Origin: Chloroflexota bacterium | Lineage (GTDB): Bacteria > Chloroflexota > Dehalococcoidia > Lucifugimonadales > UBA2985 | Direction of reading: 5' to 3' | Assembly: GCA_028877205.1 (NCBI GenBank) | Contig: JAPPHY010000007.1 | Span: forward strand, 1 to 64,000 | DNA: 64,000 nt | Shown here: piece by piece, positions 20,540-54,488 of the stretch | How positions within the stretch are numbered: the stretch's first letter is position 1 | Layout: every line of letters starts with the position of its first letter | The notes under the pieces: generated by a model | Databases searched by the model: none | The model's input: only the letters and a program-made list of their open reading frames with translations | What the model was told of the DNA's origin: nothing | Position numbers and translations under genes: made by a program

Positions 20540-20900
20540 TCACGTCCATCACTACGGAGGCTACGGCGTAGTCGCGGGAGTGGGACAGGCTGATGGCCAC
20601 CTGCGTCATGCCGATGCGCTCGGCGCGGGCGAGGCCGCGATTGTGGAGCGCGATCTGTGGCGGCCGGCCCCTTCGCCGCGTCACCTCGACGTCGCGCCAG
20701 CCGACGCCGCGGGTGCCGGTGCCCAGCGCCTTCATCACGGCCTCCTTGGCCGCGAAGCGCGCGGCGAGCTGCGGGATGCGGCCGCGGCAGTAGGCCTGCT
20801 CGCCCGGCGTGTAGATGCGGTCCAGGAAGGCCTGCCCGTACCGGTCGAGCACCTGCCTCACGCGCCACAGCTCCACTATGTCCACGCCCACGGTCAGCAC
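20520..20900 (-). CDS. acpS: Holo-[acyl-carrier-protein] synthase
   Basis: 126 aa from a GTG (VLTVGVDIVELWRV). Transfers 4'-phosphopantetheine from CoA onto acyl carrier protein. The magnesium-binding Asp of GVDIVE, the RFAAKEAVMKALGTG motif and ISLSHSRDYAVA are present. It heads the acpS-nnr pair under the promoter at 20961-20990. A diverged copy of its first codons and upstream region occurs at 21992-22119. Confidence 0.96.
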   Translation of the reverse strand: MLTVGVDIVELWRVRQVLDRYGQAFLDRIYTPGEQAYCRGRIPQLAARFAAKEAVMKALGTGTRGVGWRDVEVTRRRGRPPQIALHNRGLARAERIGMTQVAISLSHSRDYAVASVVMDVNEDSNR

Positions 20901-20960
20901 CGGCTACGACCTCCGACGGCCCGGTTGGATTGCGGGCGGCGCAAGGCCGCCCCGCTACGG

Positions 20961-20990
20961 ATTATATTCGTGGCGTCGTGAGCGTGTCCA
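20961..20990 (-). promoter_or_regulatory. Promoter of acpS-nnr
   Basis: Minus strand: -35 TGGACA (20985-20990), 18-bp spacer, perfect -10 TATAAT (20961-20966), giving a leader of about 55 nt. In the diverged duplicate at 21992-22119 the -35 is preserved but the -10 has become TAGCAT, consistent with loss of function there. Confidence 0.65.
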
Positions 20991-21099
20991 CGGCGGTCGC
21001 AGTTCCCAAGGTGCGCGCAAGCCTCAGCCAGCGACCGGAGGACGCTTGTCGTGCTATCGTAGGCCCATTGACGGGTGGTCACGGGGAAGAGGAGGGACC

Positions 21100-21285
21100 G
21101 TGCAGGGCACCGCAACACACCCGAAGCGGAGCAGGACCTTCCTGGAGCGGGCGTTTGCTGAGCTTGAGATCGGCGACCGGCCACGAACCACGAGGCTGGA
21201 GCGACCGCTCAAGATGGTCACGATTGAGTTTTTTCCTGTGCGATCTGGATCAGGTTGCCGCACGTATCGTCGAACACAGCCGTGA
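21100..21285 (+). pseudogene. Possible truncated gene fragment
   Basis: A GTG with a strong GAGGAGGG ribosome-binding site opens a 61-codon frame beginning VQGTATHPKRSRTFLERAF. It reads coherently for about 40 codons and then runs antisense into the end of the VOC gene at 21218. This could be the 5' remnant of a gene cut by arrival of the ArsR/VOC module, or chance. Family not recognised. Confidence 0.25.
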
Positions 21286-21613
21286 TGACAGGCCCTAGGT
21301 CGGTTGGCGGCTGTACGAATCGCACGCCTTTCGCCACGAGACGCTCGTGTTCGGCTTCTACGTTGTCGACGGCGAAGGATGTGCTGGGGATACCGTCCTC
21401 CACCAGCGCACTGATGAACGGACGGACCGCGGGATGGGCATCAGGCTCAAGCAGCAGCTCCGTCCCCTCCGGAGCTTCCTCGGATACAACTGTGATCCAG
21501 GCGAACTCTCCCAAGGGAATGTTGTGCTTTAGCCGGAAGCCAAGCGTTTCCGTGTAGAAGCGAAGCGCCTTCTGTTGGTCGTTTACGAAGACTCCAGACA
21601 GGTTGATTCTCAT
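21218..21613 (-). CDS. VOC family protein (bleomycin-resistance/glyoxalase fold)
   Basis: 131 aa. Single-chain VOC protein: INLSGVFVNDQQKALRFYTE at the N-terminus, then EGTELLLEPDAHPAVRPF and GVRFVQPPTDLGPVITAVFD, ending DTCGNLIQIAQE, where the Glu/Gln positions fit the metal or ligand site. Related proteins are usually paired with an ArsR regulator, as here: the start overlaps the arsR stop as ATGA. Substrate unknown. Confidence 0.88.
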   Translation of the reverse strand: MRINLSGVFVNDQQKALRFYTETLGFRLKHNIPLGEFAWITVVSEEAPEGTELLLEPDAHPAVRPFISALVEDGIPSTSFAVDNVEAEHERLVAKGVRFVQPPTDLGPVITAVFDDTCGNLIQIAQEKTQS

Positions 21614-21900
21614 TTCTCGGTTCCCCCTTCATCTGTTAGGTACGGCCAACGCTCCGCGATGGCCTTCAGTGGACTGCCCTCGAACCAGTGGAGCTTCGAC
21701 CTCCCCGCTCGCCTCGTGCGAATCAGCCCGGCGGCCTCCAGGACGTCCAGGTGTTGCGCGACCGCCTGGCGTGAAGAGTTTATGCCGTGCTTCATGGTTA
21801 GGCGCGCGCAGAGCTCGAAGAGCGTCTGACCTGAACGTTCGACGAGTTCATCCAGGATGGCTCGCCTGGTTGGGTCGGCGATCGCGCGATACACGTCCAC
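21610..21900 (-). CDS. ArsR-family transcriptional regulator
   Basis: 96 aa from a GTG at 21900 (VDVYRAIADPTRRAILDEL), the normal ArsR beginning; in-frame extension to 21972 would read through the promoter. Winged helix with SRQAVAQHLDVLEAAGLI as recognition helix region and RRAGRSKLHWF as wing. No metal-binding cysteine pair is seen, so it belongs to the non-metal ArsR group that often controls VOC or SRPBCC partners. It probably represses its own operon through the palindrome at 21913-21930. Confidence 0.9.
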   Translation of the reverse strand: MDVYRAIADPTRRAILDELVERSGQTLFELCARLTMKHGINSSRQAVAQHLDVLEAAGLIRTRRAGRSKLHWFEGSPLKAIAERWPYLTDEGGTEK

Positions 21901-21906
21901 AAGAGC

Positions 21907-21936
21907 ATTATATGCAAGCGCCCGCTTGCATGTCAA
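21907..21936 (-). promoter_or_regulatory. arsR promoter with palindromic operator in the spacer
   Basis: Minus strand: perfect -35 TTGACA (21931-21936), 18-bp spacer, perfect -10 TATAAT (21907-21912). The spacer is the inverted repeat TGCAAGCG-GG-CGCTTGCA, so a bound repressor would cover both boxes. Only 6 bases separate the -10 from the GTG at 21900, so the transcript is probably leaderless. Confidence 0.85.
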
Positions 21937-21944
21937 TCCCCCTG

Positions 21945-21969
21945 ATATGCAGTAGTGTGCTTGCATGTC
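21945..21969 (-). promoter_or_regulatory. Second, degenerate copy of the ArsR operator region
   Basis: A 25-base segment repeats 21910-21934 at a 35-base offset with identical outer parts (GACATGCAAGC ... GCATAT) and a changed centre. It keeps one half-site intact and could act as a secondary operator. Confidence 0.5.
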
Positions 21970-21991
21970 CACTGTTCAAATTCACACGACT

Positions 21992-22119
21992 CAGCTCCAC
22001 TATGCCTATGCCCACGGTCAGCAACTGTTACGACCTCCGACGGCTCCGCTGGATTGCGGGCAGTGTAAGGTCGCCACGCTACGGATGCTATTCGTGGCAT
22101 TGTGGGTGTGTCCACGGCG
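21992..22119 (+). repeat. Diverged duplicate of the acpS 5' region
   Basis: This segment aligns without gaps to 20868-20995 with about 20 differences over 128 bases by eye. The original covers the first codons of acpS and its promoter; the copy has the same orientation. The two copies flank the VOC/arsR module as direct repeats. The copy no longer encodes AcpS and its -10 is altered. Confidence 0.8.
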
Positions 22120-22146
22120 GGGAAGGGTGCGCGGCGGCGTGCTACA

Positions 22147-23100
22147 ATGACTGAGTCCCAGCCCCCAAAGTCGAAGAAGCAACGGAGGCTTGCAAGAGTG
22201 CGCCTCTACCACGCAGTCGTGATTTCGGCCCTCGTCGGTATGTTCTTTGCCTCTGTCTTGGCTTGCACTACTGCAGAGCCGGACGCTATTGCAGAACCGG
22301 ATGCTATGCTCGCTCATGCGCAGGACGAACTAAACCGCCATCGTACTTTGTGGGTGCAGACCAGCGCAAGAAACTACACGTATGAGTACAACGTTCTCTG
22401 TGAATGCCCGGACCACTTAGGACAGACCGTTAGGGCAACCGTCAACAGCGAAGCCGTTGAGTCAGCTGTCTTTGCCGAATCAGGTGAGCGAGGCAATAGG
22501 GGCGATTCACTGATAGTGATAGTCTTAGACGGATCACAACGCTATCTCACTATCGGCGGCTTGTTCGACGTAATCCAGCAAGCCATCACCGGTGGGGCAG
22601 AACAACTTAGCGTGACCTATGACAGTGAGCACGGCTATCCTACGAAGATCGACATTGACTACCAGATCAACTCGATTGACGACGAGTATATCCTTACTGC
22701 TGGCGCTTACATGCCATTGCTCGCTCGGGAGCAGGACGAATTGGACCAATATCGTGCTTTGTGGAAGCAGGCCGGCTCAACCAACTATATGTATGAGTAC
22801 AAGATCCTCTGTCTTTGCCCGGAAAGCGGACAGACCATCAGTGTGACTGTCAGCAACGGAGCCATCGAGTCAGTGGTGTACGCTGAATCAAGTGATCCAC
22901 TCGTCGACCCACTCTATTACGACACCATCGGCGGCTTGTTTGACGAGATTCAGGACGCCATCACCTACGGGGCAGACCGACTTACCGTGACCTATAGCGG
23001 CAAGTATGGCTACCCAACCGAGATTGATATTGACTACGAAGTCAACACGTACGACGAAGAGCTTATCCTCACTATCAGCGCCTACATGCCGTTGCCGTGA
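22147..23100 (+). CDS. Lipoprotein with two tandem DUF6174-like domains
   Basis: 317 aa from ATG at 22147, with no clear ribosome-binding site. The N-terminus has a basic stretch, a membrane helix and lipobox ASVLAC. Two similar domains follow: the first from HAQDELNRHRTLWVQTSARN to the mid-protein, the second from REQDELDQYRALWKQAGSTN to the end. Each has a YTYEYNVLCECP/YMYEYKILCLCP strand, a TIGGLFD helix, and GYPTKIDIDYQIN/GYPTEIDIDYEVN, which fits DUF6174. The function of this family is unknown. Lower GC than the housekeeping genes around it. It sits just downstream of the duplicated acpS region. Confidence 0.75.
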   Translation: MTESQPPKSKKQRRLARVRLYHAVVISALVGMFFASVLACTTAEPDAIAEPDAMLAHAQDELNRHRTLWVQTSARNYTYEYNVLCECPDHLGQTVRATVNSEAVESAVFAESGERGNRGDSLIVIVLDGSQRYLTIGGLFDVIQQAITGGAEQLSVTYDSEHGYPTKIDIDYQINSIDDEYILTAGAYMPLLAREQDELDQYRALWKQAGSTNYMYEYKILCLCPESGQTISVTVSNGAIESVVYAESSDPLVDPLYYDTIGGLFDEIQDAITYGADRLTVTYSGKYGYPTEIDIDYEVNTYDEELILTISAYMPLP

Positions 23101-54331: not shown

Positions 54332-54430
54332 CCTTCCCCCGCAAGCGGGGGAAGGTCAGGATGGGGGCAATGAGGCCGTTTGGTTACGCAAGAATCACCG
54401 CCATCTCAATCTTCCCCCTCAAGGGGGAAG
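54332..54430. repeat. Two GC-rich hairpin repeats
   Basis: CCTTCCCCCGC-AA-GCGGGGGAAGG (54332-54355) is a perfect 11-bp inverted repeat, and CTTCCCCCT-CA-AGGGGGAAG (54411-54430) repeats the motif. They lie after trxB and before pabB in the 228-base gap, and may terminate trxB transcription. The open frame running through them into pabB is not protein-like. Confidence 0.7.
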
Positions 54431-54488
54431 AGGCTCTTGGTGGCCGGCAAGTGAGTTGTACAAAGGTCTCCATATAGGTGCCCCCACA

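Follow-up and report, generated by a model that had tools for sequence, protein, structure and literature searches.

A palindrome that fills the spacer of a consensus arsR promoter: a predicted autorepressor operator and a candidate recognition rule

What role does a palindrome have when it occupies exactly the space between the two hexamers of a consensus promoter, a few nucleotides before a start codon? The question is posed by the minus strand of the 64-kb window (the whole stretch of DNA that was analyzed), where the promoter of an arsR-family gene reads TTGACA-18-TATAAT and agrees with the consensus at 12 of 12 letters. The -35 element TTGACA lies at 21931..21936 and the -10 element TATAAT at 21907..21912. 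The spacer between them, TGCAAGCGGGCGCTTGCA (21930-21913, minus strand), is in its entirety the 18-bp core (21913-21930) of a 20-bp palindrome, ATGCAAGCG-GG-CGCTTGCAT (21912..21931), whose ends reach one base into each hexamer, the last of the -35 and the first of the -10. On the strength of the inverted repeat and its conservation, this palindrome is the predicted ArsR operator. Six nucleotides, GCTCTT, separate TATAAT from GTG 21900-21898, which from its position and from the relatives is the predicted start codon of arsR and the predicted +1 of a leaderless transcript. The first-pass annotation had described a wholly palindromic 18-bp spacer within a consensus promoter and a -10 ending 6 bases before the GTG, and both descriptions are borne out on the minus strand.

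Exact TTGACA-N16-19-TATAAT sequences occur twice in the window, compared to none in 100 dinucleotide shuffles; the only other one is at 152, also on the minus strand, with an N16 spacer. The motif TGCAAG-N6-CTTGCA is found at a single place in the 2.0-Mb genome. Taken alone, perfect inverted repeats with arms of at least 9 are not uncommon: the window has 7 overlapping matches, against a shuffle mean of 3.2 and a largest value of 9. Elsewhere in the window, at 54332-54431, lie CCTTCCCCCGCAAGCGGGGGAAGG and TCTTCCCCCTCAAGGGGGAAGA, a pair of perfect inverted repeats rich in G+C, 78 bp apart from start to start.

We propose that the palindrome would serve as operator for the product of the next gene downstream, the ArsR-family protein. 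An ArsR dimer on this site would fill the -35/-10 spacer and exclude RNA polymerase, so that arsR and the overlapping VOC gene would repress themselves until a signal, probably other than a metal, releases ArsR. The start codon would lie at or next to +1, and the mRNA from the proximal promoter would thus be leaderless. A second, distal copy of the promoter and operator may be what is left of a tandem pair that many relatives keep intact, and Gln49 of the recognition helix may read the G/C letter at half-site position 6. Taken as a whole, an autorepressed, leaderless arsR-VOC switch with a spacer operator is, in our judgment, a highly probable explanation of the locus.

The arsR-family gene (21610..21900, minus strand) encodes a putative repressor of 96 residues that is assigned by profile match and model to the HTH_20 winged-helix proteins. 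Its membership in ArsR/SmtB at the level of fold is seen in scores of 43.4 bits for HTH_20 (cut-off, 27) and 23.5 bits for HTH_5 (cut-off, 22). The AlphaFold model (pLDDT 88.5) places RQAVAQHLDVLEA on one helix, the recognition helix, at residues 44-56 (21733..21771, minus strand); the codon of Gln49, the residue associated with the operator letter, is at 21754-21756 on the same strand. The nearest folds found by Foldseek are ArsR proteins, and the solved structures closest in sequence (2oqg, 3f6o, 3f6v, and SrnR, 7p6f), with 29-35% identity over the aligned part, are also among the nearest by fold. The downstream gene (21218..21613, minus strand), whose start overlaps the arsR stop, encodes a 131-residue VOC-fold protein of the glyoxalase/bleomycin-resistance superfamily, with 4g6x as its nearest solved relative (E 3e-50). 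ArsR/SmtB metalloregulators usually carry a metal-binding Cys pair. Here C31 is the sole Cys, and the score against the NCBIfam metalloregulator model NF033788 is 48.3 bits, below the cut-off of 55; because of these two points, we rejected a metal sensor as the default reading. The score against the SdpR-type autorepressor model NF033789 (NCBIfam) is likewise below its cut-off (33.9 bits versus 100).

The layout was compared among 80 loci from genome contigs that encode ArsR proteins 73-90% identical to that of the window, the best 80 of 403. A TTGACA-like hexamer (2 mismatches at most) directly abutting TGCAAG-N6-CTTGCA (3 mismatches at most), within 125 nt upstream, is present in 79 of these best 80 of 403, the one without the motif being L033. 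At least one operator copy is followed directly by TANNNT in 70 of the same 80 (best 80 of 403), and none is in the other 10. All 93 of 93 close matches have an arm gap of 6, with gaps of 2-11 permitted in the search, and in 48 representatives the half-sites and hexamers are nearly invariant and the central six letters variable. Downstream, 79 of the 80 relatives (best 80 of 403) have a VOC match, and for the remaining one, L086, the contig ends. That half-sites, gap, and hexamers are kept around a variable center argues for the operator inside the promoter, bound by ArsR, that the annotation had envisaged, as do the near confinement of the motif to ArsR genes and the covariation of an operator letter with the recognition helix, both described below.

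The comparative set suggests a rule by which such operators may be recognized. For a large subfamily of ArsR proteins, those with the helix x-Arg-Gln-x-x-x-[Gln/Lys]-His, we think it likely that Gln reads ..AAG/CTT.. and Lys reads ..AAC/GTT... Gln accompanies every operator of the TGCAAG type, with G and C at the inner sites (138 of 138 loci), and Lys every one of the TGCAAC type (20 of 20). The helix residue is Gln as well for seven asymmetric operators, whose two position-6 sites read CC in 4, GA in 2, and TC in 1. L178, whose motif has 4 mismatches and whose helix residue is Arg, was dropped from the table. The 166 loci, L178 included, are redundant and were reduced, with the loci of a 247-genome scan added, to 119 distinct proteins: 93 of G type with Gln, 22 of C type with Lys, and 4 asymmetric with Gln, the last being counted with the G type. 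Across these 119 proteins, the Gln/Lys column of the alignment separates the operator types with 0 errors, and the next best column makes 5.

Shared ancestry, rather than direct contact, could also produce such an association, and we consider this unlikely, although it deserves serious weight. A tree that leaves out the Gln/Lys column (48 representatives) shows five changes each of operator and residue, a small number, and since there is no discordant row, the changes of the two coincide. The independent pairs are three on well supported branches (five on the best tree), too few for a sign test to reach significance (p 0.25). The loci behind the 119 proteins were found either through the operator, with only C or G asked, or as close ArsR relatives, and the phylum scans covered C or G at both inner positions, so that other pairings are under-sampled. 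Against shared ancestry stand the status of Gln/Lys as the sole error-free column, the coincidence of all five changes, and the requirement of the matching residue of HlyU for DNA binding (PMC4330345).

A further argument against shared ancestry comes from loci that were chosen by protein only and that agree with the rule across distant groups. Twenty plasmid loci were taken by protein similarity from 65 listed hits and picked for organism variety, their promoters being unread at the time. The helix x-RQ-xxx-[Q/K]-H is present in 13 of the 20, and 13 of 13 carry the predicted letter (8 Gln/G and 5 Lys/C) when as many as 3 of 12 half-site mismatches are permitted; the loci that agree belong to actinobacteria, proteobacteria, a deinococcus, a bacteroidete, and a haloarchaeon. 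Ten of the 13 have a copy with a TTGA-type -35 immediately before it (all except L246, L249, and L261). By our own estimate, a match with 3 mismatches is, by itself, expected by chance in about 1 locus in 10, and four loci (L242, L247, L250, and L253) depend on such matches. The 7 of the 20 plasmid loci that lack the RQ helix have no such operator inside the promoter (L254 has weak matches only), and the rule is therefore limited to the RQ type. Three of the seven, L255, L256, and L257, have instead ATGTTAT-N6-ATAACAT close to the start codon; their ArsR proteins have the helix CTVMQHL, and on the other side is a divergent gene annotated as SRPBCC or ATPase. The Gln of CTVMQHL and the Lys of RAAVKKHL fall outside the rule.

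A weaker lead concerns the residue before Arg-Gln: at position 5 of the half-site, A may pair with Ser/Thr there and G with Ala/Lys, with L175 as an exception. Three plasmid records (L247, L248, and L250, from Nocardia, Streptomyces, and Nonomuraea) each have two TGCAGC-type palindromes before ArsR genes, and in these Ala precedes Arg-Gln. Among the open-licence PMC papers that the searches listed, no title or abstract opening dealt with this operator or with a Gln/Lys rule.

We turn to the start of the gene and of its message. For this comparison we used 41 ArsR representatives below 85% identity, 37 of which have arsR as the first gene. In 25 of the 37, the distance between the -10 closest to the gene and the first in-frame start codon is 3-8 nt, an interval that fits two in-frame codons and would therefore contain a start by chance in about 9% of cases (our own estimate); in the remaining 12, the start is at 14-42 nt (10 representatives) or is absent within 60 nt (2 representatives). 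In 33 of the 80 relatives (best 80 of 403), an in-frame stop codon precedes the conserved start by no more than 15 nt, which excludes upstream starts in those loci, and a Shine-Dalgarno-like sequence was detected in 0 of the 80 (best 80 of 403). For 8 of the 80 loci (the planctomycete-type group and L108), the assumed start was too far into the gene by one codon. The relatives thus point to GTG 21900 as the start of arsR, and they support the leaderless start that the annotation had read from this arrangement; that the mRNA is leaderless and the switch "very tight" we infer from sequence. In the genome of the window itself, TANNNT ends 6 nt before the first ATG or GTG in 4 of 254 ORFs (330 kb), with 2 of 696 in an internal control, and there is no clear signal of general leaderless use among the 254 ORFs, which counts against the leaderless reading. 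By this test, leaderless starts are no general habit of this genome, and the layout therefore appears to belong to the cassette.

The promoter and operator have a second copy, TGGACA-TGCAAGCACACTACTGCA-TATCAG (21942..21971, minus strand), recognized as a repeat match of 25 nt with 76% identity at a spacing of 35. A second copy at a 35-base offset had been reported in the annotation, and its existence and spacing are confirmed; it does not follow the first one, however, but lies 35 bp upstream of it, distal in the direction of the gene. The distal copy is decayed in its -35 (TGGACA), its -10 (TATCAG), and its right arm (ACTGCA). Two promoter-operator matches are present in 41 of the 80 relatives (best 80 of 403), and among these 41 of the best 80 of 403 the spacing is 33-37 bp in 36, 14 bp with overlap in 4, and 28 bp in 1. 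Many relatives have their better promoter in the distal copy, with a weak -10 in the proximal one, the reverse of what is seen in the window; in the many relatives with an upstream copy, a transcript from it would have a leader of about 35 nt.

These tandem copies bear on a rival reading, in which the palindrome is an ArsR operator but the arsR mRNA is leadered, with transcription starting at the distal copy or further upstream and translation possibly at GTG 21972. In its favor, the reading frame of arsR in the window is open to that codon (an ORF of 120 aa), the distal promoter is near consensus in many relatives, and a start codon 3-8 nt downstream of the -10 is missing in 12 of the 37 representatives. 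In the window, however, the distal elements are decayed and the proximal ones perfect, and the HTH domain starts only downstream of the extra N terminus that GTG 21972 would add. The stop codons close upstream in 33 of the 80 relatives and the Shine-Dalgarno-like sequence in 0 of the 80 (both among the best 80 of 403) also speak for a start at the conserved codon, and we regard a leadered arsR mRNA as distinctly improbable.

The places where the motif occurs indicate which protein is likely to bind it. In 24 genomes holding relatives, picked from the genomes of the 80 loci, the promoter-operator motif (3 mismatches at most) is found at 28 places, 27 of them before an ArsR gene, and a reversed-pattern control gave 0. 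The phylum scans matched 19 of 201, 24 of 150, 43 of 298 (a set that includes the 150 genomes of the preceding scan), 7 of 199, and 15 of 247 genomes, with 0 control matches in each. These scans delivered 74 loci, which include places already in the 80-relative set and leave out 7 locus-less places of the 298-genome scan; a same-strand ArsR gene lies within 700 nt in 66 of the 74. The eight others are L172, L174, L177, L178, L199, L206, L211, and L217; in L174, L178, and L199, ArsR is encoded elsewhere in the locus in another arrangement. L217 has a perfect operator-promoter before a lone SRPBCC-like gene, a possible regulon member, and no ArsR was found in the locus. Two motif matches fall inside ORFs and likewise have no ArsR gene on their strand within 700 nt. 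One, L112, is in a mutL-like ORF (our own reading), and the other, L151, is in a long ORF that is presumably NB-ARC-like. A regulon reading of the motif was rejected, given the one place in the window's own genome and the 27 of 28 places in the 24 genomes that precede an ArsR gene.

The few matches without a nearby ArsR gene would suit a palindrome bound by another regulator, with its closeness to arsR incidental, but the motif is almost exclusively associated with ArsR genes, and its operator letter covaries one to one with the recognition helix of ArsR, which makes this very improbable. It is scarcely credible that the palindrome is due to chance or to a structural role, for example as an RNA hairpin or terminator: about 3 such inverted repeats are expected per shuffled window, but this one fits exactly between two consensus hexamers and recurs in 79 of the 80 relatives (best 80 of 403) with a fixed gap and a variable center, and a terminator scan of the window called none at the palindrome.

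The arsR-VOC cassette sits between two copies of a 139-nt direct repeat that align with 83% identity, one (20858..20996, minus strand) covering the start and upstream region of acpS and the other (21982..22120, minus strand) on the opposite side of the cassette. A query with one repeat copy matched nothing in the genome beyond these two, and the acpS query found one more, weak match of 45 nt. Adjoining the cassette at 22102-23100 is a lipoprotein-like ORF (our own reading) with two DUF6174 stretches. Locus-specific flanking repeats were detected in 6 of 74 loci with both flanks, the window included (the others being L032, L043, L051, L055, and L095), versus 4 of 201 control spans from the window's own genome, suggesting that the cassette can insert with target duplication. 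In L032, a tRNA-Leu(gag) gene (2323-2408) lies just downstream of the cassette and is overlapped by one copy of the flanking repeat.

None of 97 relatives from the same family or order encodes an ArsR more than 53% identical to that of the window, and no other motif match except L112 was found in 246 further genomes of the order. Cassettes with ArsR proteins 73-90% identical occur in other loci of the phylum and in other phyla. In a search for an empty insertion site in relatives of the order, the alignment of L117 and L118 with the window ends near the acpS start (about 20899). We consider it likely that the arsR-VOC cassette arrived by horizontal transfer. MAG titles are a poor guide to transfer between phyla: the record L058/G255, titled Gammaproteobacteria, shares a phylum group with G260, which is titled Longimicrobiales.

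The site would be an ordinary autorepressor switch whose layout is very compact and widely kept: the operator doubles as the spacer, and the predicted +1 is at or near the start codon. The switch is of a known type; the residue-operator rule, which we did not find in the open-licence literature, is a testable candidate for recognition by this ArsR group. If the rule is true, the operator, and hence the whole switch, would be predictable from protein sequence alone, because such repressors sit inside their own, often leaderless, promoters, and the rule would also offer compact self-regulated promoters for reporter work. Little published work on the ligands and VOC/SRPBCC partners of this group was found in the open-licence PMC literature.

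Two characterized systems invite comparison. HlyU and other SmtB-ArsR winged-helix regulators have the same fold as the ArsR described here (Foldseek matches 4k2e, 3jth, and 4ooi). The HlyU recognition helix contains Gln63-His64-Leu65, a Gln-His-Leu in common with the present protein, and the Q63A variant is fully defective in binding; HlyU differs in that it activates other genes, and the parts of that paper drawn on here describe no spacer-filling operator (PMC4330345). Rv2034 of Mycobacterium tuberculosis is a small ArsR-like autorepressor that binds and represses its own promoter and heads an operon, in that case with a polyketide_cyc2-domain gene rather than a VOC gene as partner, and its binding was not inhibited in gel shifts by the five metals that the paper reports on (PMC3338718). 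Its operator, CCGTAAGT-N4-ACTTACGG (that is, ..TAAG-N6-CTTA..), has GTAAG as outer half-site letters compared to GCAAG here, and Rv2034 is reported to bind many other promoters (PMC3338718), whereas one site per genome is usual for the present motif. Its footprint extends from -30 to +3 on the coding strand, with the start codon marked beside it (PMC3338718), and this relative thus adds support to the autoregulation read from our locus, which likewise has an N6-spaced palindrome overlapping its own promoter near the start codon. Under the Gln/Lys rule, the recognition helix of Rv2034 is predicted to carry Gln.
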